From: a virus
Length of the DNA stretch: 64,000 bases
Virus record (IMG/VR): IMGVR_UViG_3300044684_000278
Location: 62,001-126,000 of that record
Direction: 5' to 3' (one strand)
Below the pieces are notes generated by a model, which searched no databases, was not told the DNA's origin, and worked only from the letters and a program-made list of their open reading frames with translations. The position numbers and the translations under genes are program-made. Below, piece after piece: positions 569 to 60,700 of this stretch (its first letter is position 1; each line of letters starts with the position of its first letter).

Positions 569-904
569 TCATTTCAGCTTTTCAGCTAATTGGTCAAGTG
601 CTTTTTCCAGGTCTTCCATGGAAGGTGGATTCTCATAGTAGGACAGCTCATAGAGTCCTTTTTTCTCACTTATGTAGTAGCTGCAATAATCGTTGGTATC
701 ATCCCATTTAACTAAGGCTACGTCAGTATTAATTTGTGTAAGAGTTCCTCTTGGTTTAAAACCGGTATACTTTTCTTCCCAGAGGCCACCTTTTCTTTTT
801 CCCCAGTCAGGGCCGGGCATGACACGTAATCCGACCTTTGCGTTCAACGGGGTAATGGGTTCTCCGTGATATATTACCTTGTCACAGGATTTAGGAAAGT
901 ACAT
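569..904 (-). CDS. Small MIB/HERC2-like domain protein, array member 1
   Basis: 111 aa from ATG 902-904. The start is preceded by a clear ribosome binding site (GAAAGGAG, 6 nt away) and overlaps the upstream gene by 14 nt. An N-terminal half with VGLRVMPGPDWG and a later KWDDTNDYCSYY-YELSYYE pattern resembles the MIB/HERC2 beta-barrel fold (GPDW entry, WD.G core, YR.G..G.YDL exit). The last residues, KALDQLAEKLK, form a short amphipathic helix shared with at least nine other proteins in this window. Function unknown; last gene of a leftward unit, followed by a terminator. Confidence 0.8.
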   Translation of the reverse strand: MYFPKSCDKVIYHGEPITPLNAKVGLRVMPGPDWGKRKGGLWEEKYTGFKPRGTLTQINTDVALVKWDDTNDYCSYYISEKKGLYELSYYENPPSMEDLEKALDQLAEKLK

Positions 905-1202
905 ATAAACTCCTTTCAAATTTTTCTTCCAATTTATCAAGGGCTTCTGTGAATTCATCCAGGGATGGCATATCCTCAACATAATACAGGTCATAAGAAT
1001 CCTTAGCTCCTGCACGGTAATCATTATCTATACAGTTATCTTCCCATTCTACAGTGACCCAACCAATAGATCCATACCTTTCCAACTCTACCAGCTTACC
1101 TATACCGGTTTTATCACCATCCTGGTCGCCCCATTCCCAGTCTTTACCCCGTTTTACACGAGCTCCTTTTTTATAGTTTTCAACTGTTACCGGTATCTCC
1201 AT
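891..1202 (-). CDS. Small MIB/HERC2-like domain protein, array member 2 (best match)
   Basis: 103 aa. Two adjacent ATGs (1205 and 1202) follow the ribosome binding site AAAAGGAGGA; the second has workable spacing and is chosen. Residues 13-29 read GARVKRGKDWEWGDQDG, and further on come VTVEWEDN and YRAGAKDSYDL. This is very close to the MIB/HERC2 domain known from the eukaryotic ubiquitin ligases Mind bomb and HERC2, where it binds peptide ligands. No RING, ankyrin or other ligase part is present. The C-terminus EALDKLEEKFE is the shared helix of the family. Role in the phage is unknown; ligand binding is inferred from the fold only. Confidence 0.85.
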   Translation of the reverse strand: MEIPVTVENYKKGARVKRGKDWEWGDQDGDKTGIGKLVELERYGSIGWVTVEWEDNCIDNDYRAGAKDSYDLYYVEDMPSLDEFTEALDKLEEKFERSLYVLS

Positions 1203-1497
1203 CATTCCTCCTTTTCAGCTGGGAAGCAAGCCTGTTCAGAGCAGCTTCAATATCCTTAAACTCTACTTCGGGGTAGATCAGAGGAATCTTTCCAGACTTT
1301 ATCTGGTACCCTGGCCATATCCCTTTGGCAAGCTGTGGAAATCCTTTCCATTTTACCTGGATGATTTCTGAGTACTTGTGGATCTCTACAATCCTGCCCT
1401 TTTTTACTCCCTTAAACCGGGAATCGTGAGGTCCCCAGTCAGGGCCTGGAATTACTATGTCTCCAATTTTGGCAGTATTAACGTTAACTGGTTTCAT
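1180..1497 (-). CDS. Small MIB/HERC2-like domain protein, array member 3
   Basis: 105 aa, ATG 1495-1497, AAAGGA 6 nt upstream. It contains IGDIVIPGPDWGPHD, a KGRIVEIHKYSEIIQVKW core and a YQIKSGKIPL exit, a divergent version of the same barrel. AALNRLASQLKRR near the end is the shared C-terminal helix. The reading frame overlaps its neighbours on both sides, as in the rest of the array. Confidence 0.8.
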   Translation of the reverse strand: MKPVNVNTAKIGDIVIPGPDWGPHDSRFKGVKKGRIVEIHKYSEIIQVKWKGFPQLAKGIWPGYQIKSGKIPLIYPEVEFKDIEAALNRLASQLKRRNDGDTGNS

Positions 1498-1798
1498 GAT
1501 TTATCCTTTCTTGCTTTTCAATGAGTTTCTCCACTTCCTGGAATAAGGTTGTTAAATCCTCTGTAGTTGAATCATAGACTGCCAGTTCGTATTTTCCCGC
1601 CGCTCCAATTCGGTAAGAATAGTTGAATCCTCCTGGTTTCCACCTCACATCAGCATACCATCCGGCAATGTCATCACATACTTCGGTAATAATACCATAC
1701 TGACTAACACCAACGTGATGATTCTCCGAATGATTCCAATCAGGGCCTTTGCAGACTTTCATGCCTACAAAAGCATTTTCATGCGTCACCTTTTCCAT
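1484..1798 (-). CDS. Small MIB/HERC2-like domain protein, array member 4
   Basis: 104 aa from ATG 1796-1798. It shows FVGMKVCKGPDWNHSE, YGIITEVCDD, ADVRWKPGGFNYSYRIGAAG and GKYEL, i.e. all the landmarks of a MIB/HERC2 barrel in order. The C-terminal helix reads QEVEKLIEKQERI, a weaker version of the family tail. Overlaps the upstream gene by 13 nt and the downstream gene by 14 nt. Confidence 0.82.
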   Translation of the reverse strand: MEKVTHENAFVGMKVCKGPDWNHSENHHVGVSQYGIITEVCDDIAGWYADVRWKPGGFNYSYRIGAAGKYELAVYDSTTEDLTTLFQEVEKLIEKQERINHETS

Positions 1799-2400
1799 AG
1801 AACTTTACTCATCAGATACAGTGTTTCTATAAATATCCTGGGGATACTCAGCAGGAACTTCTTGATCTTCCTGGGAAGACGTAGCAGCCAGGCTATCAGG
1901 TTACCATGCTTTTTACCCAGCATGATGTCTGCCTGGATCTGGTCCAGTCCATCCATGATCTGCTCAATGGTCTCCTGTTTCTTCTCCACTGTAGATTCAG
2001 ATACATCTTCTGCCGGAAGGGTAGCACCTGTGTAAACAGGTTTTGAGAAAGAGGAAGATTTACCATGTGCAGCCAGGAAGTTATCTTTGTATTCCTGCCA
2101 TTGGTCCACGGTTGGGAATCCTTTTCCAGGAGAAAGTTCCTGTTCATAAACATGCCTTAAATCATGCCGTGAACTGAGTCCTGTTCTATATTTAGCTGAC
2201 TTTCCATTATCCCATTCTACTTCACAGTACAAGCCGTTCTTAAACACAATAACAATAGTCCCCATGGTTCCGGGAAGCATCTCATATATAGTAAAGGGAA
2301 AGTCAAAAGTGGTATCCCTGCACCAATCGGGACCACCCGCCATTACTCTTAGTCCGACCCTTACTTCATCATAGCGTACAGGATCTCCTGGTTTTAACAT
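1786..2400 (-). CDS. MIB/HERC2-like protein with long cationic hydrophobic C-terminus, array member 5
   Basis: 204 aa, ATG 2398-2400 preceded by a strong ribosome binding site (AAAGGAGG, 7 nt). Residues ~14-80 hold the MIB-like barrel (VGLRVMAGGPDWCRD, CEVEWDNGKSAKYRTGLSS, RHDL). Instead of the short family tail there is a linker and then a C-terminal ~45 residues rich in Leu, Ile, Trp and Lys/Arg (AWLLRLPRKIKKFLLSIPRI). This could lie on or insert into a membrane. First gene of the MIB-type run; possibly a membrane-anchored version of the same binding domain. Confidence 0.8.
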   Translation of the reverse strand: MLKPGDPVRYDEVRVGLRVMAGGPDWCRDTTFDFPFTIYEMLPGTMGTIVIVFKNGLYCEVEWDNGKSAKYRTGLSSRHDLRHVYEQELSPGKGFPTVDQWQEYKDNFLAAHGKSSSFSKPVYTGATLPAEDVSESTVEKKQETIEQIMDGLDQIQADIMLGKKHGNLIAWLLRLPRKIKKFLLSIPRIFIETLYLMSKVLWKR

Positions 2401-2726
2401 TGGTTTCCTCCTTTCTGATCTGCCACTTTAAGCAGGAGCAGATCCAGATTAAAATAGATTTGTTCAATAACAGGGAGCTGCTTCACCAGATTCCTGGGAA
2501 GTTCTTTGATGGATACCTTGAAGTACTTATTCTTCCTGTTATTCTTACAGCCCCAGGCATACTTGATTTCTTCAAACCTGAGTTTTTTGTTGTGTGTGAT
2601 CTCTTTAACTGTCAGCACCTGTCCCGGCTTTACCCAGGACTGCTCACAGTCATTTAGTATTTTGATTTTGCAGCCTATAAGGGACTGGCTGATTTCAGGA
2701 TGGATAAGATCTTCATAAGTAGCCAT
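2394..2726 (-). CDS. Small SH3-like barrel protein, paralogue of the next gene
   Basis: 110 aa. GCKIKILNDCEQSWVKPGQ, LTVKEI, RFEEIKYAWGCKNNRKNKYFKV match the same segments of the protein encoded at 2729-3037, so the two are paralogues. The fold looks like a small beta-barrel. The C-terminus VIEQIYFNLDLLLLKVADQK takes the place of the family helix. Overlaps the downstream gene by 7 nt. Confidence 0.75.
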   Translation of the reverse strand: MATYEDLIHPEISQSLIGCKIKILNDCEQSWVKPGQVLTVKEITHNKKLRFEEIKYAWGCKNNRKNKYFKVSIKELPRNLVKQLPVIEQIYFNLDLLLLKVADQKGGNQC

Positions 2727-2728
2727 AT

Positions 2729-3037
2729 TTAACTCAGTTTATCTTCCAGCCGCTCCAGATGAAGTAGTATATCATCCATCAGCGGTGAGAGTGCTTTATC
2801 AATATGTTTTAACTCATAGATCATCTCCTGACCTTCCAGTACCTGGAATAATTTTCTACTGGAGTTATTGGCACATGACCAGTAGCGGCCTCCCATTTCC
2901 TTGATACCAAGGTTCTTTGACCGGTATGAGGAAACCGTATAGATCTGTCCGTTCTTCAGGTGATTAAACCCGTTGTTGTTCACGATCAGGATCTGTTTGC
3001 CTACCAATTCTCTGCAGGCATCAGGGAAATAGCTCAT
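2729..3037 (-). CDS. Small SH3-like barrel protein with family C-terminal helix
   Basis: 102 aa. GKQILIVNNNGFNHLKNGQ, YTVSSYRSKNLGIKEMGG and YWSCANNSSRKLFQVLEG align with the neighbour at 2394-2726. Ends HLERLEDKLS, the shared ALDKLEEKL-type tail. No recognised family. Part of the same leftward, overlapping gene run. Confidence 0.75.
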   Translation of the reverse strand: MSYFPDACRELVGKQILIVNNNGFNHLKNGQIYTVSSYRSKNLGIKEMGGRYWSCANNSSRKLFQVLEGQEMIYELKHIDKALSPLMDDILLHLERLEDKLS

Positions 3038-3348
3038 GGTGATTGAATTTGTAATTTGTTTTCCAGTTTGTCCAGGGCTTTCATAATCAGTTCAATATCA
3101 GCATGAAGAGAAAGAGCATGTTCTGCTATGATTACCATAGATGCATTAGGTCTTATCGCAAGTCCATAGTACCATTCATTACGGTCTTCATGCCAGTATG
3201 TTGCCATCACCTGATAAACCCTGTTAGCTACCCCGTTCACTGCTGCATATCTGTTTGTACTGGGATAATAATATCCAAAGCCGTTACAGCCATCTTTTTT
3301 GCAAGCCCTGACTTTGTCCAGGGGCTTGAATTTGGGTTCTGGTCTCAT
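3034..3348 (-). CDS. Small barrel protein with family C-terminal helix
   Basis: 104 aa. The N-terminal part (KFKPLDKVRACKKDGCNGFG ... YQVMATYWHEDRNEWYYGL) looks like another small beta-rich domain with two early cysteines. The C-terminus MKALDKLENKLQ is the family tail. Start ATG 3346-3348 with AGG 7 nt upstream; overlaps the next gene by 4 nt (ATGA). Confidence 0.75.
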   Translation of the reverse strand: MRPEPKFKPLDKVRACKKDGCNGFGYYYPSTNRYAAVNGVANRVYQVMATYWHEDRNEWYYGLAIRPNASMVIIAEHALSLHADIELIMKALDKLENKLQIQSP

Positions 3349-3444: not shown

Positions 3445-3861
3445 CTACTTAATCCACAGTTGCCCTTCAACCTGTTTTTCATTAGGTTCATTGGCAGCCT
3501 TGCGTGATTTCTCTTTCATGGCCTCCAGTTTCCGGTTGATCAGATACTTGGCCACCGGTTCATAGGCACGTAAGAGCACATAGTGAACCAGCCCCTGGAT
3601 AGAGCACATTATAAAGGCCGTAAACAGAAAGTTATACAGCCAGTAGTGTGATACTACCACCACAGGGAGATCGCTCGTCAGAAGCAGGATAAACACGCAC
3701 CAGTGCCCAAAGCACCACGGGCAGTGAATCAGGTCTTCAATCTTTGTATGAAACTTGCTGATCCACTCACGGAATGGTTTGAAAATACCGGTGGATGTGA
3801 CGGTGAAGGAAACAGAGGCACAGCATAGTGCCCCCATTACCAGGAATAGGAATTCTTTCAT
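3445..3861 (-). CDS. DUF1360-like integral membrane protein
   Basis: 138 aa from ATG 3859-3861, one base after the upstream stop, with GATGAGG upstream. There are about three hydrophobic segments (FLFLVMGALCCASVSFTV, WCVFILLLTSDLPVVVV, WLYNFLFTAFIMCSI) and the motif HCPWCFGHWC typical of DUF1360-like phage and bacterial membrane proteins. The basic C-terminus (RKLEAMKEKSRKAANEPNEK) is probably cytoplasmic. Function of the family is unknown; inner-membrane location is expected. Confidence 0.7.
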   Translation of the reverse strand: MKEFLFLVMGALCCASVSFTVTSTGIFKPFREWISKFHTKIEDLIHCPWCFGHWCVFILLLTSDLPVVVVSHYWLYNFLFTAFIMCSIQGLVHYVLLRAYEPVAKYLINRKLEAMKEKSRKAANEPNEKQVEGQLWIK

Positions 3862-3862
3862 A

Positions 3863-4165
3863 TTATAATACCTCATCAGCTTCTTCAAGCCCGTCTTCCG
3901 AAATCCGGTCACCATCCTGCAGGTCCGAGTCTTCAGGCACTTCCCTTAAGATCTCAAAGTCTGCTCCCCCACACCCACAGCCTGAGTACACCACCAGCCT
4001 TACCTTGCGGGTCTTTGGCATATAAGCTCCCAGAATGTCCTCTATACTCACCTCTTCTGCCTTTTTGATCACAGGAGCTTTTTCCTGTTCCTTGTGGAAC
4101 TCTTCTCTCAGTTGGGCCAGGTTGTCCTTCTCCTGACCGGCTTTACGGTTTTTAAGCTTTTGCAT
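3863..4165 (-). CDS. Hypothetical acidic protein with CGCGG motif
   Basis: 100 aa. Charged helical N-terminus (QEKDNLAQLREEFHKEQEKA), then VYSGCGCGGADFEILREV and a very acidic tail (EDSDLQDGDRISEDGLEEAD). The cysteine cluster suggests a metal or redox site but the family is not recognised. Overlaps the AAA+ gene by 14 nt, so the two are probably translated together; it might be an adaptor for that ATPase (inference from position only). Confidence 0.7.
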   Translation of the reverse strand: MQKLKNRKAGQEKDNLAQLREEFHKEQEKAPVIKKAEEVSIEDILGAYMPKTRKVRLVVYSGCGCGGADFEILREVPEDSDLQDGDRISEDGLEEADEVL

Positions 4166-5321
4166 AACTTGAGTTTATTAATTTGATTGATTCTTCCAGG
4201 TCTGCTGCAGTAACTCCCTTAGGAGTTTTCTTGGTAGTAGTCATCCTGGTCAGGGCTTTGCGTACAGCACCTTTGGCAATGGCTTCCACCATAGCTCCCG
4301 ATACTTTACTCTTACAGGGAAGACTAAATAACATATCAGCTCCTTTGATGGCCAGGTCTTCTACCTTGTCATGGCATTTTACCTTCTTAAGGTGGATCTC
4401 AAAGATCTCCTTGGTATCCGGATGATCCGGACGGTTGATGCCAATCTTCAAGTCTATCCTTCCTTCCCGGACAATAGCCTCATCCAGCGCATTAGGGAGA
4501 TTAGTGGCCAAAATGAAAATCGGGTTGTGCTCTTTTTCCAGTCCGTCCATTTCTGAAAGGAACGTAGGCACAATGGTCATCTCCACGTCTGATGATTTAC
4601 CGCTGCCTCTCTGACGGAGCAGGGCTTCTGCTTCATCCATGAAAACAACAGCACGCTGGCCGGTCTTTTTACAGTACTGGCGGGTAGCATGAAACATGTG
4701 GGCTACTTTCTGCTCTGCCTCACCTACGAACTTGCTCAGCATCTCTGCCCCTTTTACGTAAACAAAGGCTGCGGGATCCACTTTTGTGGAACCAAGGATC
4801 GTAGAGGCAATGGCTTTACCGATCAGGGTCTTGCCACATCCCGGAGGACCATAGAGTACCAGGCCGGGAAAATCTCCCAGACCCATCTCTTTTGCCAGCT
4901 CCTGGTGTTTCAGGGGCAGCTCAATGGCTTCACGGATGTTGCTTAACTGTGATTTAAGTCCACCGATCTCATTCCAGTCAATCAGGTTGAAATGAGGAAT
5001 GTCAGTTACTTTCTCCAGCTCTTTGGGAACCACGGCAATGATGGCGGATCCAATACAGATCACCTCTGTTCCCGGCTCAAGAATTTGGGTAATAGGGTCT
5101 CCGAAGATAGGCTCTTCATTCAGGAACATAACCGTTCCGTTTACCCGGTAATACTGGGCATTGTTATGAACAAAAGGGCCAGCTACAATGGTGTGTACTT
5201 CTTTTTTCTCACCAAGGAACTGCTCCAGCATCTGCTCATATTTATCAACCTGCTCTCTGAGGGCTGATAATTCGTCTGTTGGGGCTACGGGAGCCTCAAA
5301 TGTTGCTTCTTCCTGAAACAT
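4152..5321 (-). CDS. AAA+ ATPase of the proteasome-activator (PAN/Rpt) type
   Basis: 389 aa from ATG 5319-5321 (a longer GTG-initiated form from 5405 is possible but adds an unconvincing leader). Order: acidic start, coiled coil (~15-40, LSALREQVDKYEQMLEQFLG), OB-like beta domain (~45-110), then the AAA+ core with Walker A GPPGCGKT (158-165), Walker B VVFMDEAEALL (D229, E230), DGLEKEHN, and the ATNLPNALDEAIVREGRID region with sensor and arginine-finger-type residues. Coiled coil plus OB plus AAA+ is the layout of proteasome-activating nucleotidases and related unfoldases. No protease domain is fused. It could unfold host proteins or remodel a phage complex; partner unknown. Confidence 0.88.
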   Translation of the reverse strand: MFQEEATFEAPVAPTDELSALREQVDKYEQMLEQFLGEKKEVHTIVAGPFVHNNAQYYRVNGTVMFLNEEPIFGDPITQILEPGTEVICIGSAIIAVVPKELEKVTDIPHFNLIDWNEIGGLKSQLSNIREAIELPLKHQELAKEMGLGDFPGLVLYGPPGCGKTLIGKAIASTILGSTKVDPAAFVYVKGAEMLSKFVGEAEQKVAHMFHATRQYCKKTGQRAVVFMDEAEALLRQRGSGKSSDVEMTIVPTFLSEMDGLEKEHNPIFILATNLPNALDEAIVREGRIDLKIGINRPDHPDTKEIFEIHLKKVKCHDKVEDLAIKGADMLFSLPCKSKVSGAMVEAIAKGAVRKALTRMTTTKKTPKGVTAADLEESIKLINSSYAKA

Positions 5322-5428
5322 GTTAAAGTAGGATTTATGAGTAAATAATTGTTGATGGATTAAAAAGGCCAGGACAGGAATATCCCAGGCCGTCTTACTA
5401 ACCACATAATGTTTTTGTTACGTTACTA

Positions 5429-5473
5429 CAAAAAAAGCCGAACTTGTAGAGGTTTATTCTACAAATCCGGCTC
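5429..5473 (-). terminator. Intrinsic terminator upstream of the AAA+ gene
   Basis: Minus strand AGCCG-GA-TTTGTAGA ... TCTACAA-GTT-CGGCT followed by TTTTTTT. It would stop transcription coming from the gene ending at 5550. The stem contains the recurrent TTGTAGA/TCTACAA sequence. Confidence 0.75.
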
Positions 5474-11617: not shown

Positions 11618-13009
11618 TTACGGATTAAGGATTATTATTTTTGTTACTTGTTTCTTTTTGGTTAGTACTACGGGACTTTGATGACTAACCTGTGGCTGTC
11701 CCAGGGCTGCAGGTGTTTTTACGGGTAATGTGACAGGAGTGTTATCGGGCTGAGGGGATGGATTAACAGGGTAACAGAATGAATCCAATATTCTGATGTT
11801 TGCTGATTCATATATACCCAGATCTGCAGGCGTGATTTCTACATTGGTATTTTTATCAAACCATTTTCTGTCATTGCCTAAGAAGGATAGAGTCAGGTTG
11901 TCGGAAAATAGTGCATAAGAATCAGTATACATAACCCGTCTTTCATTTAATCCCCACTTATGACCTAATTCAAACAACTTTTCCTGCACTCTTCTGGAGA
12001 GATCAGGGTTATTTCCAGTCCAGATCTTGAAGTGGTTTGGCAGCTTTGATACCGGCTTCTCATCCTGGATGATTTCAGCCCACTGATAACCTGTAAATAT
12101 TTGTATCTCTTTCAAGGTACTTCCTTCTACTGTACAGATAACACTTTTTAAACTTTCCACTTTCGGGACTCCAACAATTGTATAGGTATCACCTGAAATA
12201 AATCCCTTTACTTTAGTACCAATAGGATATTTTCTCTTAGCTTCAGCTAACAGCTCTTCTTTTGGATCAGGTCTTACTTCCTGGGATAGTTGTTCTACTT
12301 TCTTAGCCCAGCCTTTATCTGATTGCCATACTACTCCTCCCCAACCATCTGTAATAAAAGATGAATTGTTGCTATCATGATAACCCCATACTTCTTTGTG
12401 TGTACACGGCTCTTTTGGATGGCCACTGACAGAGTAATACTTTGTACCCTCAGGATAGTTCTTTTCAGCCTCAATGAGTAATGCCTGATGATGCAGTGTT
12501 TTAGCACCACGTTTGGCATATCCTGGTTTAACAAGTTGAGGCTTATCATACTCTTCAAACTCTGATTCCAACATTGTCAGGGAAGAATGAAATGAGCATT
12601 CAACTTCTATTCTATGACACGGGTAGTCAGAATTATAATCATGGTATCTTATAACTTTTCCTGTTTTACCTTCTTCATCAAAATGCCAAAAGCAATAAGG
12701 ACCTTTTTTAAAAGTAACAGTATCCCCGATCTTAAATCTTAGCTCTGGTTCCTTTTTTTCTCCCTTAGCAGGTTGAATAATCTCAGCCCAGTATCCCATA
12801 CTATAGATCCTGGCTGTTTTCCTGTCTTCTGGGTTAGGAGCTACATCAACATATACATCCTGTCCTACCCAGTCAGAGGGGACATTTCTGAGACTCTTAA
12901 AGGGATTATCTGCTACTGTAAACTCTCTACCTTTTACAAGGTCTTTGAAACGGGCACCAGGGACAAATCCTTTTTGTTCAGCCCTGGCCGTAAATTCACT
13001 TTTTCTCAT
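11618..13009 (-). CDS. Multi-domain beta-barrel repeat protein
   Basis: 463 aa with a strong ribosome binding site (AAAGGAGG, 4 nt). Repeated short motifs suggest several small barrel modules: FVPGARFKDLVKGREFTV ... GYWAEIIQ; FKIGDTVTFKKGPYCFWHF; YPEGTKYYSVSG; YPIGTKVKGFISGDTYTIVG ... GYQWAEIIQD. The C-terminal region is proline-rich (NPSPQPDNTPVTLPVKTP) and ends KKKQVTKIIILNP. The WAEIIQ segment occurs twice, so the protein probably arose by internal duplication. The barrels recall the small-barrel family encoded at both ends of this region. Function unknown. Confidence 0.7.
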   Translation of the reverse strand: MRKSEFTARAEQKGFVPGARFKDLVKGREFTVADNPFKSLRNVPSDWVGQDVYVDVAPNPEDRKTARIYSMGYWAEIIQPAKGEKKEPELRFKIGDTVTFKKGPYCFWHFDEEGKTGKVIRYHDYNSDYPCHRIEVECSFHSSLTMLESEFEEYDKPQLVKPGYAKRGAKTLHHQALLIEAEKNYPEGTKYYSVSGHPKEPCTHKEVWGYHDSNNSSFITDGWGGVVWQSDKGWAKKVEQLSQEVRPDPKEELLAEAKRKYPIGTKVKGFISGDTYTIVGVPKVESLKSVICTVEGSTLKEIQIFTGYQWAEIIQDEKPVSKLPNHFKIWTGNNPDLSRRVQEKLFELGHKWGLNERRVMYTDSYALFSDNLTLSFLGNDRKWFDKNTNVEITPADLGIYESANIRILDSFCYPVNPSPQPDNTPVTLPVKTPAALGQPQVSHQSPVVLTKKKQVTKIIILNP

Positions 13010-13403: not shown

Positions 13404-13468
13404 AATGCCAGGATATGTCCAAGGGTTAAGAGTAGCCCCAGGATGTATACGATAAAGAATGTTTTCAT
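13400..13468 (-). CDS. 22-aa single-TM microprotein
   Basis: ATG 13466-13468 to TGA 13400-13402: MKTFFIVYILGLLLTLGHIL AL. It is little more than one membrane helix. Both ends share ATGA with the adjacent genes, so the whole run 13806-13021 is translationally chained; that is the main evidence that it is real. Confidence 0.55.
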   Translation of the reverse strand: MKTFFIVYILGLLLTLGHILAL

Positions 13469-13806
13469 GATTGTTTCAGTTTTTCAGAGAGCTGGTCTAA
13501 TGCAGTCTCTATTTTGTCAATGATATGTGGATTTGTTAGCTGACTGATGTTAACGGGTCTGTTTACTTTGTCATAAGCCTCTCTTTCATAATCTTCAGCA
13601 TATCTCCAGGAATAGGATTTCCCTGCAGCACGGTAATTCAAAGGATCAAAACAGATTCTTGTGTTACCATTTGTGTCATCTCCTCTTAAGTCTATTTCTG
13701 GCCGTAACCAGTCACAGTCCTCCCGTTGCTTAAAGACATAATTCTTTTTCCATGCTGGAAACGGTGTGTCTTCCAACAAGACAATATAATCTCCCTGCTT
13801 AAACAT
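13465..13806 (-). CDS. Small barrel protein with family C-terminal helix
   Basis: 113 aa, start preceded by AAAAGGGGGGAAAG. FKQGDYIVLLEDTPFPAWKK opens a beta-rich domain; SYSWRYAEDYEREAYDKVNR PVNIS leads to a C-terminal helix ETALDQLSEKLKQS, matching the tail of the proteins encoded at 569-3348. The RPVNIS / GPVRVS linker is shared with the gene at 13799-14143, its closest paralogue. Confidence 0.72.
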   Translation of the reverse strand: MFKQGDYIVLLEDTPFPAWKKNYVFKQREDCDWLRPEIDLRGDDTNGNTRICFDPLNYRAAGKSYSWRYAEDYEREAYDKVNRPVNISQLTNPHIIDKIETALDQLSEKLKQS

Positions 13807-14143
13807 CTTTCCCCCCTTTTAACTTGTCAGTTAGTTTATCCAAAGCCTGATCAAGCAGGTCTATTACTGGAGTATAGTCCACTTCTGAAACACGGACTGG
13901 GCCTCCATTCTTATTGTAAGCCTCTATCTCTTCTGTGGTAGCTGGACGAAGATCTTTCAGACAGAAGTTAACACACCAGCGATTGTCCTCCAAGATAGTG
14001 ATGAGATTCTTTTTAGCATAATCCCAGTCAAAATTGGGTGGCCAGGTACATTTACAGATTGTACCCACAAGGTGTGAGTAACTAAACTGATCATAGTTAG
14101 CAGACTTAATGACTACAATATCTCCGTTTTTTACTGTTTCCAT
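13799..14143 (-). CDS. Small barrel protein with family C-terminal helix
   Basis: 114 aa. VKNGDIVVIKSANYDQFSYS HLVGTICKCTW and NLITILEDNRWCVNFCLKDL suggest a small barrel; GGPVRVSEVDY is followed by DQALDKLTDKLKGG, the family tail. Overlaps the next gene by 8 nt. Confidence 0.72.
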   Translation of the reverse strand: METVKNGDIVVIKSANYDQFSYSHLVGTICKCTWPPNFDWDYAKKNLITILEDNRWCVNFCLKDLRPATTEEIEAYNKNGGPVRVSEVDYTPVIDLLDQALDKLTDKLKGGKDV

Positions 14144-17122: not shown

Positions 17123-17437
17123 TTACTTATTTAGTTTCTTTTCAAGCTTGTTGAGGGCTGATTCTAACTGGTCTATAAGGGAAGACTCGTCCAGGACGAG
17201 CTTATCAAATTTAATCTGGGAAGCATTTTTATGACCATCCCAGATTAACTTAGCCCCAAGAGGTCTGCCGTCAGCTACTGAGTTCCAGACCCCTTTTATA
17301 GTGCCGTATTTCTTATCCTCCCAGTATTCCCAGTTGATAGCAGCATCAGTATGAAACGTTCCGTCTACTATTTCCTTGCGTGGTCTTACTCTTTTACCAG
17401 GAACACAGGTTTCCAATGTCAATAGTTGCTCTTCCAT
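17123..17437 (-). CDS. Small barrel protein with family C-terminal helix
   Basis: 104 aa. LTLETCVPGKRVRPRKEIVD opens a barrel-type domain (YGTIKGVW, GAKLIWDGHKNASQIKFDKL); the tail is LESALNKLEKKLNK. The closest paralogue is the gene at 17441-17743, which shares TCVPG-RV and the tail. The C-P-G-x-R-V-x-P opening is in the same place as the G-x-R-V-x-x-G-P-D-W of the MIB-like members, so these may be distant relatives. Confidence 0.75.
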   Translation of the reverse strand: MEEQLLTLETCVPGKRVRPRKEIVDGTFHTDAAINWEYWEDKKYGTIKGVWNSVADGRPLGAKLIWDGHKNASQIKFDKLVLDESSLIDQLESALNKLEKKLNK

Positions 17438-37924: not shown

Positions 37925-38941
37925 ATGAGTGTTACTATCGTAGAGAAATACCCTCAGAACAAGAGACGTACTTCAGTAGCTGTACGTCCGTTCTTTGATC
38001 CCAGGGTAGAGAATATGGGACTTCAGAACTATGGTCTAAGTCTTTTTGACGGGGCCATGCACATTGAGCAGCTGGCCTGCCTGGAGATCAACGGTATCAA
38101 AAGATACCTCACCGGCTTAAACGAGTTTGCTCCTGAACTCCTGGACCTGGATCCTGAGGAAAGAGAAGCCAAGATCCGCAACATCCGGGAGACCGTATCA
38201 CACCTGGAAAAGGTGCTTGCCTCCAACGTGGTAAAGCCAGAAGATGCAGAGTTCTGGAATAAGGTAAGGCTTCTGAAGCCTGACAATGCCGAGTTCTGGG
38301 ATAAGATAGAGATCAAAGCTGGTAATGACCCTTTGTTCCTGGATCCTGAAAAAGATCCTTATGATCTGATCAAGCTCTATGCTATTGAAGCTGGTGGTTT
38401 CTCAATCGTAGCCAGAAGCCTGGAACATGCCCGCCAGCAACCCACTCCTCCTAAGTTTTACTTAGACAAGCTGGAAGAAACCGCATCAGCCAACACAGAA
38501 GTTAAGAAACTGCGTAACAAAGCTGCAGCTGAACTCCAGAAGTTATTTGACAAGAATACCAACAAACTGTTCTACGTGGCCAAGGTACTGGATCCTAACA
38601 GTGCCCAGTACAAGAAATCCACTCCTAATGATATTGTCTATGACAACATGGATAAATACATCAACGGAGAACTGGTTGACAAGGATAAAAAGAAAACAGC
38701 TGCACGCTTCCTGGAAGTGGCCAACCTGGATATGGAATCCTTAAAGATCCGTGCCATTGTGAAGGATGCCAACTTCTACCGGTTCATAGCAACCAAGGCA
38801 GATGGATTCATCTACCACATGGAGAAACAGCTGATGATGGGCCGCACGCCAACAGACGTAGCAGAGTTCTTAAAGAACCCTCTCAACGAGGAGGCCCTGG
38901 TAGACCTTACCAAGAAAGTAGAAAAGTACTGGAACCAGTAA
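37925..38941 (+). CDS. Conserved virion-associated hypothetical protein
   Basis: 338 aa, follows the capsid gene as in crAss-like phages. An internal duplication is visible: VKPEDAEFWNKV and LKPDNAEFWDKI. Helical and charged (ARFLEVANLDMESLKIRAIV) with tail TKKVEKYWNQ. Terminator downstream. Probable head-related protein. Confidence 0.68.
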   Translation: MSVTIVEKYPQNKRRTSVAVRPFFDPRVENMGLQNYGLSLFDGAMHIEQLACLEINGIKRYLTGLNEFAPELLDLDPEEREAKIRNIRETVSHLEKVLASNVVKPEDAEFWNKVRLLKPDNAEFWDKIEIKAGNDPLFLDPEKDPYDLIKLYAIEAGGFSIVARSLEHARQQPTPPKFYLDKLEETASANTEVKKLRNKAAAELQKLFDKNTNKLFYVAKVLDPNSAQYKKSTPNDIVYDNMDKYINGELVDKDKKKTAARFLEVANLDMESLKIRAIVKDANFYRFIATKADGFIYHMEKQLMMGRTPTDVAEFLKNPLNEEALVDLTKKVEKYWNQ

Positions 38942-50314: not shown

Positions 50315-51544
50315 ATGATTCCAACCCGTTCCAATCTCCCTGAAAGGGGGTGTTCTCCGGTATCCTCTAACTGTGTCACATGGCAGGGCCCATGCCTTAC
50401 CTGTATTGGAGTCAATACGGGGGACAGTGTCTCTGATGTGGTAGCAGCCCTTGCCCAGCAGGTTTGCGAACTGCTGGATACGCTAAACATCACGGATCTG
50501 GATTTCAAGTGCCTGGTGGACAGTTCCCTGACCACTGGTGCTCCATCCAAGAACCTTTCTACTGCTATCACCCTTCTGATCAATAAAGTCTGCTCCCTGG
50601 AGGATGCCATTGGTGCCCTTGGAGGCAGTACGGCTACTCCTGCAGAAGTCAATGTAAACATTGCATCCTGCTTCCAGGTTACAGATACCAATGGAGATAC
50701 AGTAACCACACTTGGTATCTCTGATTACGTTAAAGCCATTGGTAACAAAGTATGTTCCCTGGCTTCCACTGTAACCGCACAGGGTAACACACTGACCAAC
50801 CATGAAGGAAGGCTCTCCACCCTGGAAAATAAAGAGAGCAGCACCACACTCCCCACCGTTGCTCCAGGATGTCTGGCTACCAGTTCCACTCCCATCGCAC
50901 TGGATAGTGCTGTGGAGGAACTGATCACCCAGTTCTGTGCCCTGCAGACAGCTACCGGAAAAGGTGCTGACCTGTTGGGTGCCGTATCAAAGCAGTGCGC
51001 TAACATAAACTCAGATACCCAGCTCTCCGGATCCGGGAACATGAGTGCTATCAGTGGCTGGAAATCTGCCCCCGCAACGGTTGCGGATTCCCTGAATAAT
51101 ATGTGGCTGGCTATCTGTGACATACGTGGTGCTGTAAAAAGCGTGATGACCTGCTGCAAGAAAACCTGTGCAGATGTGATTGTGAGCTTCGTTGCTAATA
51201 TCACAGACAATGGTGCCACCCTGAAATTATTTTTCTCCGGTTATACTTTTATTCCGGATGGATTCTCAGACTGTTCTGTAAATGGGGCCAAACTAACTAT
51301 TACTGATGGTCTTGGTGGAAGCTATACCACGTATATAAAACTTGCTACTGCTGCTGCATCTACTGATCCGATAAGTATCAATGTTGCTTCTACACCATTA
51401 AGTCCTACCGGTAACTATAGCCTGACTTTAGACAGCTGCTTAACCGATGGTACGCTCACCTGTAATAAATCTGTAGTTGTATCGGTTACTGGTACTGCCC
51501 TAAGTTGTAATGCTCCTTCTAATGTAACTGCCACTCTTGCATAA
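50315..51544 (+). CDS. Virion fibre-type structural protein (crAss-like)
   Basis: 409 aa. SNLPERGCSPVSSNCVTWQG PCLTCIG, VNVNIASCFQVTDTNGDTVT, NTLTNHEGRLSTLENK and MSAISGWKSAPATVADSLNN are familiar from head/tail fibre proteins conserved in crAss-like phages: Cys-rich knot, coiled coil, then a beta-rich tip (VIVSFVANITDNGATLKLFF). Probably forms virion fibres. Confidence 0.75.
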   Translation: MIPTRSNLPERGCSPVSSNCVTWQGPCLTCIGVNTGDSVSDVVAALAQQVCELLDTLNITDLDFKCLVDSSLTTGAPSKNLSTAITLLINKVCSLEDAIGALGGSTATPAEVNVNIASCFQVTDTNGDTVTTLGISDYVKAIGNKVCSLASTVTAQGNTLTNHEGRLSTLENKESSTTLPTVAPGCLATSSTPIALDSAVEELITQFCALQTATGKGADLLGAVSKQCANINSDTQLSGSGNMSAISGWKSAPATVADSLNNMWLAICDIRGAVKSVMTCCKKTCADVIVSFVANITDNGATLKLFFSGYTFIPDGFSDCSVNGAKLTITDGLGGSYTTYIKLATAAASTDPISINVASTPLSPTGNYSLTLDSCLTDGTLTCNKSVVVSVTGTALSCNAPSNVTATLA

Positions 51545-53997: not shown

Positions 53998-54025
53998 ATT
54001 TTAGAGAGTAAATTTGTAGAATAAG
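53998..54025 (+). promoter_or_regulatory. Promoter-like element with TGTAGAATAAG
   Basis: AGAGAGTAAATTTGTAGAAT AAG, a looser match to the recurrent element, 27 bp before the gene at 54052. TTCTACAG at 53980 and TGTAGAA at 54015 form a spaced dyad. Confidence 0.5.
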
Positions 54026-54051
54026 AAAGCATACACTAACCCCTTACCCTA

Positions 54052-55368
54052 ATGAATTTGATCAACCTTGTCTATGACTCCCTGAAGTGGAAGAAGTCAG
54101 ATGAGTTCTGTGCAGCCAAGCTGGACATTACCCTGGAAAAATACAGGAATGTAAAAGACCAGATCCGCCTGGTGAAGGAGATCTTCCAGGATGACCTGGA
54201 TGATGTGCTGAAGGATCTCATCCAAAAGAAGATCCAGGAGCAGGAAGATGAGCGTACCCTGATTGAAGAGTCCGTGCGTACCCTCCAGGAAAGAGGTGTT
54301 GTCCTCAACAAAGAACCCAAGGTCATAGAAAGTAAGCATAACCTGGATGATGGTACTGCTGAACTGAAGGCCATCTCTTTTACCGAACCAAAGAGTGCTG
54401 AGGAGATTGAGAAGATCCTAAAGATTGACAAGAGCAAGTGGAAGCTTGCCACCTACTGGAATAAAGAACATAAGGGCTACTGGCTGGTATCGGCCATGGT
54501 CACCCAGAAAAAACCCGAACCGGTTGACATCCTCCGTACCGCCCTGGAGGATCTGCAGCTGAAGTACACCCCTGTAACAGAAAATCACATCAATAAAAAG
54601 TTCACGGATAATACCTGTGCGGTCCTGTCCCTTCAGGACATCCACGTAGGAAAAGAAGTGATCGAGCATGGCGGATCCATTGAAGCCTCTGTAAAGACCT
54701 GCATCCAGCAGCTGATCTATAAATCCTACCATTCCTTCTGCCTGGACAAGATCATCTTTGTGCTGGGTGGGGACCTGGTCAACATGGATACCTGGCTGGG
54801 CACCACTACTTCAGGCACTCCTGTTGCCAACAGCATGGGAGCTTATGAAGCCTTCCAGCTGGCCTTCGAGCTGATGTTCTGGAGTGTGAACTTCTTAAAG
54901 CAGTTCTGTAATGAACTGGAAGTGGTATACATCCCAGGTAATCACTCAAGACTTACGGAGGCACACATTGCCTATGCCCTTTCCCGGCAGATCACTGATC
55001 CCCATATCACCTGGAACATTGGCTATGCCACCCGTAAGGCCATCCAGTATGGTAATTCCATGATCTGTCTGGAGCATGGGGACTTTGATACCCGCAAATC
55101 CTTTGCAGCCTTTGCCACTGAATTCCCGGAAATGTGGGGAAAGACCAAGTACCGGGTGGTTTACACAGGTCACTACCACAAGGAAAAGAAGATTGAATAC
55201 CTCACCACGGATGAACTCAACGGGTTAACCGTTAAAGTCCTTCCTTCCCTGTGCAGGAAAGACCGTTACCATGATGATCATAAATGGTTTGGCAACAAGC
55301 GTGGTGGTATCATTGAACTGCATAATGAGACCAAGGGCCCTGTGGGTCAGTTTTCTTACTATGAATAA
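54052..55368 (+). CDS. Calcineurin-like metallophosphoesterase
   Basis: 438 aa. After an HTH-like, charged N-terminal region come the metal-ligand motifs in order: QDIHVG (D196, H198), GGDLV (D241), GNH (N297, H298), LEHGD and GHYH (H374, H376). These define the calcineurin-like phosphoesterase superfamily. Substrate unknown: could be DNA, nucleotide or phosphoprotein. It lies between virion genes with its own promoter-like element. crAss-like relatives are likely. Confidence 0.85.
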   Translation: MNLINLVYDSLKWKKSDEFCAAKLDITLEKYRNVKDQIRLVKEIFQDDLDDVLKDLIQKKIQEQEDERTLIEESVRTLQERGVVLNKEPKVIESKHNLDDGTAELKAISFTEPKSAEEIEKILKIDKSKWKLATYWNKEHKGYWLVSAMVTQKKPEPVDILRTALEDLQLKYTPVTENHINKKFTDNTCAVLSLQDIHVGKEVIEHGGSIEASVKTCIQQLIYKSYHSFCLDKIIFVLGGDLVNMDTWLGTTTSGTPVANSMGAYEAFQLAFELMFWSVNFLKQFCNELEVVYIPGNHSRLTEAHIAYALSRQITDPHITWNIGYATRKAIQYGNSMICLEHGDFDTRKSFAAFATEFPEMWGKTKYRVVYTGHYHKEKKIEYLTTDELNGLTVKVLPSLCRKDRYHDDHKWFGNKRGGIIELHNETKGPVGQFSYYE

Positions 55369-55528
55369 ATTCTCACAACTCAATCACAAAGAAATATATC
55401 ACCATATACAGAAGTACGGAGTCAACAGTGCCTGCAGAAGATTCAACATCATGAGAGATGATGCCCTGATCATCTGCAGGACTTTTGTCCCGGTTACGGA
55501 TGTTCGTAAACCCCTGAGGTTTAGTTAG
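55361..55528 (+). CDS. 55-aa HTH-like protein
   Basis: ATG 55361 (8-nt overlap with the phosphoesterase gene) to TAG 55526-55528. NHKEIYHHIQKYGVNSACRR FNIMRDDALIICR looks like a small helix-turn-helix. Likely co-translated with the phosphoesterase. Confidence 0.58.
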   Translation: MNKFSQLNHKEIYHHIQKYGVNSACRRFNIMRDDALIICRTFVPVTDVRKPLRFS

Positions 55529-56858: not shown

Positions 56859-57773
56859 ATGAAGACTGAACTTACTTATAGAACCTTTGATGAACTGATA
56901 GATGCGGTGATGCTGGATTTACAGATGTATGCAGGAGAAAGCATGATCCAGCACGCACAACTCATTAAAGTGGCCCAGCGGGTGAACTATGAACTGGGTC
57001 TGAGAATATACAAGACCAAGCAGGATGTCATTGAGATCAACCATGGTAAGGCAAGGCTGCCGGATGATTTCTACGTACTGAACTATGCCCTTCTGTGCTC
57101 CCATTACAAGATTATACAACCCAAAATACAAGGAACCCATAAAGAAGATGCAAGAGCTTTTTTTAACTGTGATACTACGTGTACTCACTGTCATAAACCC
57201 AATCCGTGTGCAGATAAAGAAGGTATTGATCCGGATGATTTTGATTTCTGCAGATGTGACAAAGTATTTACCAATGAATGCGGAGATACTTTCACTGTTA
57301 TTCATAAGGTAGGCTGGGAATTCCGCTCCTATGATGAATTTGAGCACCTGGCGTTCCGTCCTGATAAAAAAGTAGACCCTCTTTTCCAGCATAATGCCTT
57401 TACACGTCATCACCGGAACGTAGCGGAGATCCGTAACAACTTCATTTATGTGAACGGACTGCAGACCGGGAAGCTCTATATCTCCTATGAGGGAGCCCTG
57501 GAAGATGATGAGGGGAACCTGCTGGTGCTGGATCACCCACTGGTGAACGAGTACTATGAGTATGCCCTCAAGCAGCGGATCCTGGAAAACCTGTATATGA
57601 ATGGTGAGGATGTGGTACAGCGTCTCCAGCTCATAGAGCAGCGGATACGTCCCGCCCGTAACAATGCCTACACCATTGTCAACACCCCTGACTTCCAGGA
57701 GTTGCAGGCAGTCCATGACATGAACCGTAAAGCCTATTACAAACGATTTGTTTCCATGTTCGTCGTAAGATAA
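56859..57773 (+). CDS. Ring/connector structural protein
   Basis: 304 aa. TFDELIDAVMLDLQMYAGES MIQHAQLIKVAQRVNYELG, LYISYEGALEDDEGNLLVLD, and a Cys/His cluster (CDTTCTHCHKPNPC, CRCDKVF) in the middle. The helical C-terminus (YYEYALKQRILENLYMNGED VVQRL) matches head-tail ring proteins. Neighbours on both sides are of the same module. Confidence 0.72.
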   Translation: MKTELTYRTFDELIDAVMLDLQMYAGESMIQHAQLIKVAQRVNYELGLRIYKTKQDVIEINHGKARLPDDFYVLNYALLCSHYKIIQPKIQGTHKEDARAFFNCDTTCTHCHKPNPCADKEGIDPDDFDFCRCDKVFTNECGDTFTVIHKVGWEFRSYDEFEHLAFRPDKKVDPLFQHNAFTRHHRNVAEIRNNFIYVNGLQTGKLYISYEGALEDDEGNLLVLDHPLVNEYYEYALKQRILENLYMNGEDVVQRLQLIEQRIRPARNNAYTIVNTPDFQELQAVHDMNRKAYYKRFVSMFVVR

Positions 57774-57777
57774 TCCC

Positions 57778-60700
57778 ATGCCAGGCCAACCATCCCAAAA
57801 TAATTCTACTTCCAACGCTGTTACCAACCTCTTCTCCAAGGGGCTCAATAAAGACTACAATGAGAGCTTCCTGGGAGAGGGTGTATGGACACATGCCCGT
57901 AATGCAGTGAACAATTCCCATGACGGGCAGAAGGGTGTACTGGGTAATGAACCTAGTAACCTCAGGTGCGTACAGCTTCCTTACACCTATATTGGCTCGA
58001 TCCCTCTGCTGGGAGATGAGTGGGCTATTTTTACCACAGATGATACCAGCTGTGAGATCGGTATCTTCAATGAAGCCCAGTGCAGCTATATCAAAGTAGT
58101 AAACGATCCCGGACTGGGTTTTAAGCGTACCAACCTGATCACAGGTGTGTACCGGCAAACCTTCAACTGTGGACGCAAGATCTACTGGAGTGATGCCCTG
58201 AACCCGGACCGCTGCATGAACCTGGACAATCCTCCTTACGTGCAGCAGAAGGTCCTGAGTGGCGGCTGCTATATTGATACCAATACTTCACAGCTGGACA
58301 TCGAGGCCCTCAGACTGGCTCCGTTATTAACTATCCCCACACTCGGGCTGAAGAAAGGAAAAGGATCCGGCACCCTTGCCAATGGTACCTACCAGGTGGC
58401 TATTGCATACACGGTGAATGAAATCCGGGTAACAGATTACCTGGTGCTTTCCCCTGAGCAGCCCCTGTTCTCCCATGAGAACCTCTCAGGTTCCCTGGAG
58501 TTATCCGTTACCGGCACTGATCCGGAGTTTGATGAGATGGAAGTGGTGATCATTTCCACAGTAAATGCCAACACTGTGGTAAAACGCCTGGGTATCTACT
58601 CTACTGCCCAGAGCACGATCTATATTGATACCATTGATAATTCCCTGCCTACTATTCCCATCAGCCTGATCCCGCTGCGTACACCAGCCATAGAAAAATC
58701 AGACAGTATCTGGGGCGTGGGAAGCTACCTGCTTCGTCTGGGCATCTATCCCAAACAGGAGCTGAACTACCAGCCACAGGCCAACAAGATCACCACCAAG
58801 TGGGTGGCTGTAAAATACCCTGCTGATTACTACCTCAAGGGTGGAAACAAAGCCTCTTACATGAGGGATGAGCAGTACCCCTTCTTTATCCGCTGGATTT
58901 ATAATACAGGGGACCGTACAGCCTCTGCTCATATTCCAGGACGTGCTCCGCTCACAGATGATCTGGCACTGGTCACCAATGCAGATGCCATAGAGCTTTC
59001 TTATGATGGTAGTACGCCACAGAGATGGCAGGTATATAACACGGCTTCCGTGACCGCCAATACTGCCACACAGACTCCTGATGGTGGTACTATTGTCATG
59101 GAAGGTCAAATGGGATACTGGCAGAGCTCTGAGATCTACCCGGATGACAAACCGGAGATCTGGGGAAATCTATGTGGTAAACATATCCGGCATCATAAGT
59201 TCCCAGATAACTCCCTGGTTCCGCACTTCTCTGATAACGGGTCAACTATTACGATCCTGGGCGTGAAGTTTGAGAACATCACCCACCCGCTGGATGATAA
59301 CGGGAACCCTATTACCTCCATTGTAGGATACGAGATCCTGCGTGGCTCCAGGGAAGGGCAGAAGACTGTAATTGCCAAAGGCATTATCAATAACATGCGG
59401 GAGTATACCATCACCGGTAACACTGACATGCAGGGCCTGTTTCAGAACTACCCTTATAACGATTTACGTGCAGACAGCTTCCTGACCCCTGAAAGACAGA
59501 AGGGAGACAATGGTGCTGCCAATGCACACTCCTCCAAGCTGAGTGGGTATAAAAAGGACATCTTCTCTTTTCACTCTCCGGAGACCACTTTTAACAAGCC
59601 TTTTCTGTCAGCAGAAGAGCTGAAGATCTATGGGGAAGTTTCCGGTACCGCTGTGGGGCGTTTTGAGACCCCTTACAAGCATCCTAAGTTTAAGCTGACT
59701 ACTAATGCCGATGACGTAATTGGAGACATTATAGGAGTCCTGAGTGCGCTTAATTCCTTTACCAGTGGTATAGATATAGGAGCTACAGAAGACTATCCCA
59801 TTGGATTAAAAATAGGTCCACTTCCTCCGCTTCCCTATATGCCACTGGACTTCTATGGCGTGGTGGATTCTGATCCGGCAGGACAGATTGCAAACTGGGC
59901 TACATGGGGTGTACAGGCTATTGAATTTGCTGCTGCAGCTGTAAGCCTCATCACTACCATTGGCAAGTTTGCAGAGCTGGAAAAGGAGAAGTTCTTTTCC
60001 CTGATGCGTACCCTCATCCCAAAGGTGCAGTATGGAGCCCAGTATGTCAGTCATGGATTCTATGACAGTTACCAGGCTGCCCAGGAAGGTCAGACACGCA
60101 AGCTCATTACCAAGAGTAACTACCTGACAGATAACCTGCAGACTTTCAACAGCAAGTACCAGGTGAATAATATTTTCCGTGGGGCTTCTGTGATTGTTCA
60201 AACCGGCAGTGAAGTTCCGGATCCTTCTACCCAGGATCAGAGCCGTAAACTCCTCTCTGAAGCCGGAGTGGATCTGTATCAGAATTTCACTACCCCGATC
60301 AGCTCACACTATGTAGGGCTTAAAGTGAACTTATCCGCCCAGTACGGACAGATAGATTCCATCAAGCAGCTGCCTATCATGAGTGGGATCATCCGCACTC
60401 TTCCAGTGAGGAACCAGAAGTTCACTTCTGATATTCTCTTTGGCGGAGATACGTACATCAACCGATTCACGGAGAAAAATTCCTTCTTCTATTTCTATGA
60501 CTGGCTCTTTGACATGCCGGATGAATTCCAGTATGATTATACGCTCTATGTCAACGTACCTTACCCAAGATTCTGGGTTAACAATGAGCAGTATAACCGT
60601 AGCATCTTAAAGGTCTCCTCCAATTACCGTGTCCTGGATGCCAGGGATTCCACTGCTACCTATGTGAAGAAGGGTTACTTCTACCTGTTCAACTCAGGAG

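Follow-up and report, generated by a model that had tools for sequence, protein, structure and literature searches.

The MIB/HERC2 domain is the substrate-binding part of animal ubiquitin ligases. MIB1 binds short peptides (Delta/JAG1; PMC11887331), and a literature search for MIB/HERC2 in phages found no paper. Small phage proteins of diverse kinds that share a targeting sequence are already known from T4, and the proteins described here, in which targeting is putative, would be of that kind: the internal proteins of T4 form a very diverse set united only by a capsid targeting sequence (CTS) (PMC3012670). The virions of crAss-like phages, in turn, hold and eject cargo proteins (PMC10172136). 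AAA+ adaptor systems, such as Pup/Mpa coiled-coil docking and MoxR-vWA, offer a further comparison. A small stand-alone barrel is also encoded by the SPbeta prophage (YorP), and we know of no common tag or array for YorP or for the Tudor/SH3-like small proteins of phages.

The window analyzed here is a stretch of 64,000 nucleotides (bases 62001 to 126000) of a 136,320-base virus record, hereafter G000, which is a crAss-like phage by its capsid protein (Crass_capsid PF23898, 2.9e-32). A first-pass annotation had described an array of five adjacent, overlapping genes for MIB/HERC2-like domains at 569–2400. These genes are real, their coordinates were confirmed, and all lie on the minus strand with overlaps of 13 to 23 nt, but the row does not end with them. 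It continues with 2726..2394, 3037..2729, and 3348..3034, giving eight small minus-strand genes at the left end of the window (569 to 3348), separated by overlaps or gaps of a few bases. Likewise, the MIB domain had been taken as the unit of the array; it is present in the five genes, but the common element of the row is a C-terminal helix (tag A, below) that had been overlooked.

569–904, minus strand: MIB/HERC2-like domain with tag A (about 572–625), 111 aa; BLASTP to neighbours 2e-10 to 6e-9, seed of the tag HMM
891–1202, minus strand: MIB/HERC2 domain with tag A (about 912–968), the best member; PF06701 3.7e-17, AF2 and Foldseek
1180–1497, minus strand: MIB/HERC2-like domain with tag A (about 1210–1263); BLASTP 2e-9 to the 569 protein, invariant residues
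1484–1798, minus strand: MIB/HERC2 domain with a degenerate tag-like helix; PF06701 1e-10
1786–2400, minus strand: 204-aa protein in which a MIB/HERC2-like domain is followed by a linker, the tag-like ETIEQIMDGLDQIQADI, and a basic, hydrophobic tail; PF06701 3e-4
2394–2726, minus strand: paralog of 2729–3037 with a weak tag, no Pfam match; BLASTP 3e-7 to the 2729 protein
2729–3037, minus strand: small non-MIB domain with tag A (about 2732–2785); tag HMM 21.9 bits
3034–3348, minus strand: small non-MIB domain with tag A (about 3049–3099); tag HMM, missing from a 97%-identical phage

The listed ORF of the 569 gene starts at 1024, but an ATG at 904 sits behind AAAGGAG and yields the 111-aa protein. 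For the 891 gene, the ORF list gives the start as 1205, and the ATG at 1202 is preceded by AAAAGGAGG.

Two of the five MIB-type proteins exceeded the curated Pfam cut-off for PF06701 (33.5 bits), namely those of the 891 gene (62.4 bits, E 3.7e-17) and the 1484 gene (41.8 bits, E 1e-10). The 1786 protein (21.1 bits, E 3e-4, a match to the domain's second half alone) and the 569 protein (12.7 bits, E 0.12) fell below it, the Pfam search gave no PF06701 match for the 1180 protein, and a search of the whole G000 genome returned just these four matches. The three proteins that did not reach the cut-off are tied in by BLASTP (569 with 1484, 2e-10; with 1180, 2e-9; with 891, 6e-9; and, weakly, with 1786, 5e-4) and by nine residues invariant in the five proteins and eight phage relatives (G14, V17, D22, W23, G36, V52, W54, Y63, and L73). 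Searched against the PDB, a profile from four of the five proteins matched MIB1 (4xi6) at 2e-16 and HECTD1 (2dk3) at 6e-10. Judged by sequence, the homology of the five is well beyond chance and all carry a MIB/HERC2 domain; for the 891 protein a predicted structure agrees. The AlphaFold2 model of this protein, the one of the five modelled (pLDDT 77.9, pTM 0.58), had the Mib-herc2 domain of HECTD1 as its best Foldseek matches in the PDB (3dkm and 2dk3, both prob 1.00, E 1.8e-3 and 1.9e-3), so that the expected structural match to the PF06701 fold is borne out for this member. YorP of B. subtilis SPbeta (2heq) ranked third (prob 1.00), with 15% identity in the fold alignment, followed by Tudor/KOW barrels. 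The model of the 2729 protein, in contrast, was of low confidence (pLDDT 60.9) and too poor for use.

PF06701, BLASTP, and PF23898 matches together support the earlier description of stand-alone MIB/HERC2 domains in a diversified tandem row of a crAss-like phage. The proteins resemble MIB1, HERC2, and HECTD1 in sequence, in predicted fold, and at the invariant G, V, DW, G, V-W, Y, and L positions, but they are stand-alone, about 105 residues long, encoded in tandem, and C-terminally tagged, and they have no RING, HECT, or ankyrin parts. Pfam found neither a RING nor a HECT catalytic domain, nor any other family above cut-off, in these proteins of 104 to 204 aa. Searches of GenBank phages with the 891 protein, and of IMG/VR with it alone, gave no result. 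Such a stand-alone set is a minimal system for asking what the MIB/HERC2 fold binds.

Alignment of the eight genes of the row identified the C-terminus as the element running through all of them, an amphipathic helix with the consensus IxxIxxALDKLExKL and a helical moment far above that of shuffled sequence, which we call tag A. The AlphaFold2 model of the 891 protein shows it as one terminal helix (residues 82–103) behind the barrel. An HMM built from nine C-termini within the window gave, at ≥10 bits, 13 matches in G000 (the nine seeds and four independent genes) and five in a second, independent phage, G001, described below. All of these matches lay within 12 residues of the C-terminus, and no match was obtained in reversed or shuffled proteins or in four related phages. 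Throughout G000 the tagged genes are on the same strand, always with the tag at the extreme C-terminus. Identity among tags was 53, 79, and 35% at the first, second, and third codon positions, which indicates that the tag is conserved as protein; the third-position value rules out recent DNA duplication. Each of the four diverged ortholog pairs shows higher identity in the tag than in the head (tag/head 79/56, 65/48, 71/57, and 89/50%), a modest difference over four pairs and short tags. Some members of the row (1484, 1786, and 2394) have only degenerate tags. In the 1484 protein DLTTLFQEVEKLIEKQE occupies the tag position, and in the 1786 protein the helix was recognized by eye, both under the HMM threshold. 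The basic tails (AAA AGG AGG) may double as ribosome-binding sites, but an origin of the tag as a by-product of such sites in overlapping gene ends was rejected, as it explains neither the I/L/A/D core nor those tagged genes that do not overlap.

Tag A is also found at the end of four further window genes and of at least four genes in the rest of the 136-kb genome. Those of the window are as follows.

13465–13806, minus strand: tagged small protein (tag A), paralog of 13799; tag HMM 25.6 bits, tagged homolog in G001
13799–14143, minus strand: tagged small protein (tag A); tag HMM, 57% identical in the 97%-identical phage
17123–17437, minus strand: tagged small protein (tag A); tag HMM 24.4 bits
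17441–17743, minus strand: tagged small protein (tag A) with a weak Phage_tudor match (PF24144 E 0.026, below cut-off); tag HMM 27.5 bits

In genome coordinates, further HMM matches are at 38233–38511, 38495–38719, 50831–51097, and 55181–55465, with weaker ones at 38706, 38986, and 57399. The heads that precede the tag are unrelated: PF06701, WGR, SH3-like, ferredoxin-like, and others without any family, most SH3-like and other heads being assigned by eye, since Pfam recognizes few. The WGR head was matched at 7e-7 in G000 and 1.6e-7 in G001, and this tagged WGR protein, common to the two phages, is 41% identical between them. Given the common tag, the MIB genes are one part of a larger family that carries unlike heads on a like tail.

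The tagged WGR gene of G000 (genome 57399–57701) adjoins a gene that by eye resembles a macro-domain gene (57399–58191 for both); Pfam gave no match at 0.01, and a macro domain here would point to functions related to ADP-ribose. A 463-aa protein at 11618–13009 of the window contains repeated "LLxEAxxxYPxGT" modules, and its counterpart in the 97%-identical phage shares just 52% identity with it. Modules of this kind are also found on their own in G001 (129427–129705), with the second tag of that phage, and behind a MIB domain in other loci (L019–L024).

G001 (IMGVR_UViG_3300022932_000001; 134,893 bases), whose capsid protein is 82% identical to that of G000, was identified through its single MIB gene. 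This gene carries tag A at its end, and so do other genes of the phage, at least 17 in all. A tag model of 22 rows, nine of them from G001 itself, gave 17 matches in G001 and 13 in the near-identical phage G007. A de novo comparison of C-termini likewise found an excess of similar pairs over internal stretches in G001 (309 vs 18) and in G000 (34 vs 10), and background level in tagless relatives. G001 also has a second C-terminal tag (tag B), ELxxARxIIYED or LxxIRxWLYxD, on 22 small genes other than those with tag A. It is about 13 residues long, less amphipathic than tag A, and present in none of six other genomes (G000 and five more). Genes that carry it lie at the following positions.

L128: 257–580, 567–902, 892–1194, 1187–1483, 2193–2456, 3120–3368, 5942–6253
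L134: genome 127550–133476

Two head types, SH3-like "GDxV" and "YLxxxGY" (recognized by eye), occur with either tag. We take this cross-combination as the strongest evidence that the tails can move between heads and serve a function themselves.

Turnover of the genes was assessed in G007 (IMGVR_UViG_3300045836_000189), a 97%-identical phage that has the row of G000 with three changes: the 3034 gene is absent, a 35%-identical MIB gene with the same tail stands in place of the 569 gene, and identity of the 891 protein is down to 58%. Four of 19 tagged genes fell below 80% identity between the two phages, as did 20% of other small early genes. We therefore claim no special diversification; a hypervariable array was considered and rejected, because other small early genes turn over equally often.

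Distribution among other phages was narrow. PF06701 was absent from all 42 IMG/VR records of the nearest capsid relatives (79 to 87% identical), many of which are fragments, and the idea that such arrays are widespread in Crassvirales finds no support in these records. Tag A was absent from the tested capsid relatives, records of 100 to 125 kb included, and when IMG/VR was scanned with a DNA pattern of the tag, only the G001 lineage was recovered besides that of G000. The tag is real but rare, occurring in two phage lineages, and the MIB domains of other phages are without it. At least five MIB genes in a row occur, for example, at L025 6554–8527 (IMGVR_UViG_3300006750_000009), without tag A and with a common N-terminal helix, NTFVMERLVDVWGELYxC. 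In another record (L017 4961–6247; IMGVR_UViG_3300046786_000471), one protein combines a MIB/HERC2 domain and a MoxR-type AAA domain in a fusion (PF06701 3e-8, PF07728 8e-10).

We lean, by a small measure, toward a general docking explanation, in which these are interchangeable small binders with a common docking helix for one partner. Each of these small, early-strand proteins would combine two modules: a head that can be exchanged (MIB/HERC2 in the row, but WGR, SH3-like, or another small domain in the rest of the genome) and tag A, the amphipathic helix that stays constant at the C-terminus. The heads would bind different putative targets, and the helix would plug every head into one common partner, so that the phage would gain, drop, or diversify heads with the partner unchanged. 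Both the docking of the helix and a docking partner common to all heads are inferred. Candidates for that partner are the AAA+ operon beside the row, a MoxR/VWA-like pair, the virion, and the tags themselves, none of which we rate individually as better than unlikely. Identification of a common partner would make the tag a handle that gives function to some 13 to 18 unknown genes, and interchangeable C-terminal tags on unlike genes, two kinds per genome, would be a clue for annotating the "dark" early genes of phages.

The AAA+ candidate is encoded directly upstream of the row, in an operon that is a fixed neighbor of tagged genes in both lineages.

3445–3915, minus strand: DUF1360-like membrane protein encoded third in the AAA operon, probably from ATG 3861; PF07098 match below cut-off (E 0.0075)
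3863–4165, minus strand: small "GCGCGG" protein, second gene of the operon; kept in G001 and in unrelated phages
4152–5405, minus strand: AAA+ ATPase, candidate partner, likely start ATG 5321; PF00004 1.5e-30
506–530 and 547–562: TGTAGA..TCTACA inverted repeats, directly downstream of the row
5445–5463: TGTAGA..TCTACA inverted repeat, upstream of the AAA gene

An N-terminal coiled coil of the ATPase was read by eye from an alignment, and an OB-like part is putative. The MoxR/VWA-like pair lies at genome 52770–55233; its MoxR (54007–55233) matches bpMoxR (PF20030, 6.5e-16), and in the neighbor a MIDAS-like DFSGSM was recognized by eye, but Pfam gave no VWA match at 0.01 and no beta-propeller was seen. 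Five perfect TGTAGA..TCTACA inverted repeats are present in G000 (mean of 0.02 in a shuffled window), the two outside the list being at genome positions 16680 and 32074, and for the longer repeat none is expected in shuffles. Those of the window are intergenic and bracket the AAA operon and the row as one block.

Tagged client adaptors might dock on the PAN/Mpa-like coiled coil of the 4152–5405 ATPase or on the MoxR/VWA-like pair. The operon beside the row, its interleaving with tagged genes in G001 (where the AAA homolog is 54% identical), and the hairpins that enclose operon and row together are in favor, as are the sharing of the AAA module and the pair by G000 and G001, both missing from four tagless relatives, and the bpMoxR match; helical docking would fit as well. 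Proteins at genome 56053–56616, 76598–77425, and 79746–80060 are likewise common to G000 and G001 and missing from tagless relatives. The MIB–MoxR fusion in L017 and the MIB gene that adjoins a MoxR gene in L019 point the same way, but they are one fusion and one adjacency, the association is absent in L020–L025, and a general MIB–MoxR link was rejected. Against this AAA+ reading, the tag is missing from all 22 further phage records that contain the AAA gene (a single match, below threshold, fell inside a 332-codon frame) and from LR756500 (462 kb), and for this reason we demoted it from main explanation to rival. Moreover, tagless relatives commonly have MoxR-type AAA genes too, Pfam finds no VWA domain at 0.01 in the second protein of the pair, no beta-propeller component is seen, and the ATPase ends in ...LINSSYAKA, with no C-terminal HbYX motif for proteasome docking. 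On balance, an AAA+ machine as the common partner appears unlikely. The three-gene operon itself, with the DUF1360-like gene kept behind the AAA gene, also occurs in unrelated phages of up to 462 kb (L011, L163, L164, L165, L166, L176, and L178).

The helix could equally be a self-association coil, forming mixed oligomers that present several heads together. Its I and L residues are spaced 3-4-3-4 over about two and a half heptads, its helical moment is strong (0.466 vs 0.216 ± 0.022 shuffled), and many different heads are attached to the same helix. A stable coil of this length would be short, however, and the second tag of G001, with its 13 or so residues and lower amphipathicity, is put to the same use. 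We regard self-association as improbable, on a par with the AAA+ machine.

A packaging signal, by which the small proteins would ride in the virion and be injected like the T4 internal proteins, is a still weaker prospect. The likeness to T4 is that many unlike small proteins are joined by one conserved short sequence, and cargo storage and ejection by crAss-like virions would suit it. The capsid targeting sequence of T4 is N-terminal, whereas the tag HMM places the common element here at the C-terminus. More than one tag exists in the related phage, the tagged genes are on the strand opposite the structural genes, and the cargo of crAss001 comprises five large proteins with no small tagged ones among them (PMC10172136). 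Because relatives whose major capsid protein is 79 to 85% identical have no such tag, any dock in the virion would need to be lineage-specific. Ordinary paralogy, in which an ancestral barrel-plus-helix gene was duplicated and the helix is part of the fold, accounts for the paralogs among the MIB genes and in the 2394/2729 and 13465/13799 pairs, and many heads may be SH3-like barrels, but it is already weakened and seems a poor prospect, since the same helix is found on WGR and ferredoxin-like heads, the same head types carry a different tag in G001, and the MIB domains of other phages are without this helix.

The general docking explanation would also allow an ambitious form, for which we see only a small chance: a two-part adaptor system of some large crAss-like phages, in which dozens of small binders, MIB/HERC2 domains included, would be sent to distinct phage machines, such as an AAA+ unfoldase, according to a small number of orthogonal helix codes at their C-termini. 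If true, phages would have their own equivalent of targeting by ubiquitin ligases or Pup, minus ubiquitin.

Outside phages, a strict MIB pattern matched only three of 84,980 prokaryote genomes, with the match inside a MIB domain in two of the three. These rare bacterial domains (L234 and L235) are in a 604-aa, secreted-looking protein of an uncultured proteobacterium, which has two copies of the domain, and in a long frame of a planctomycete MAG.
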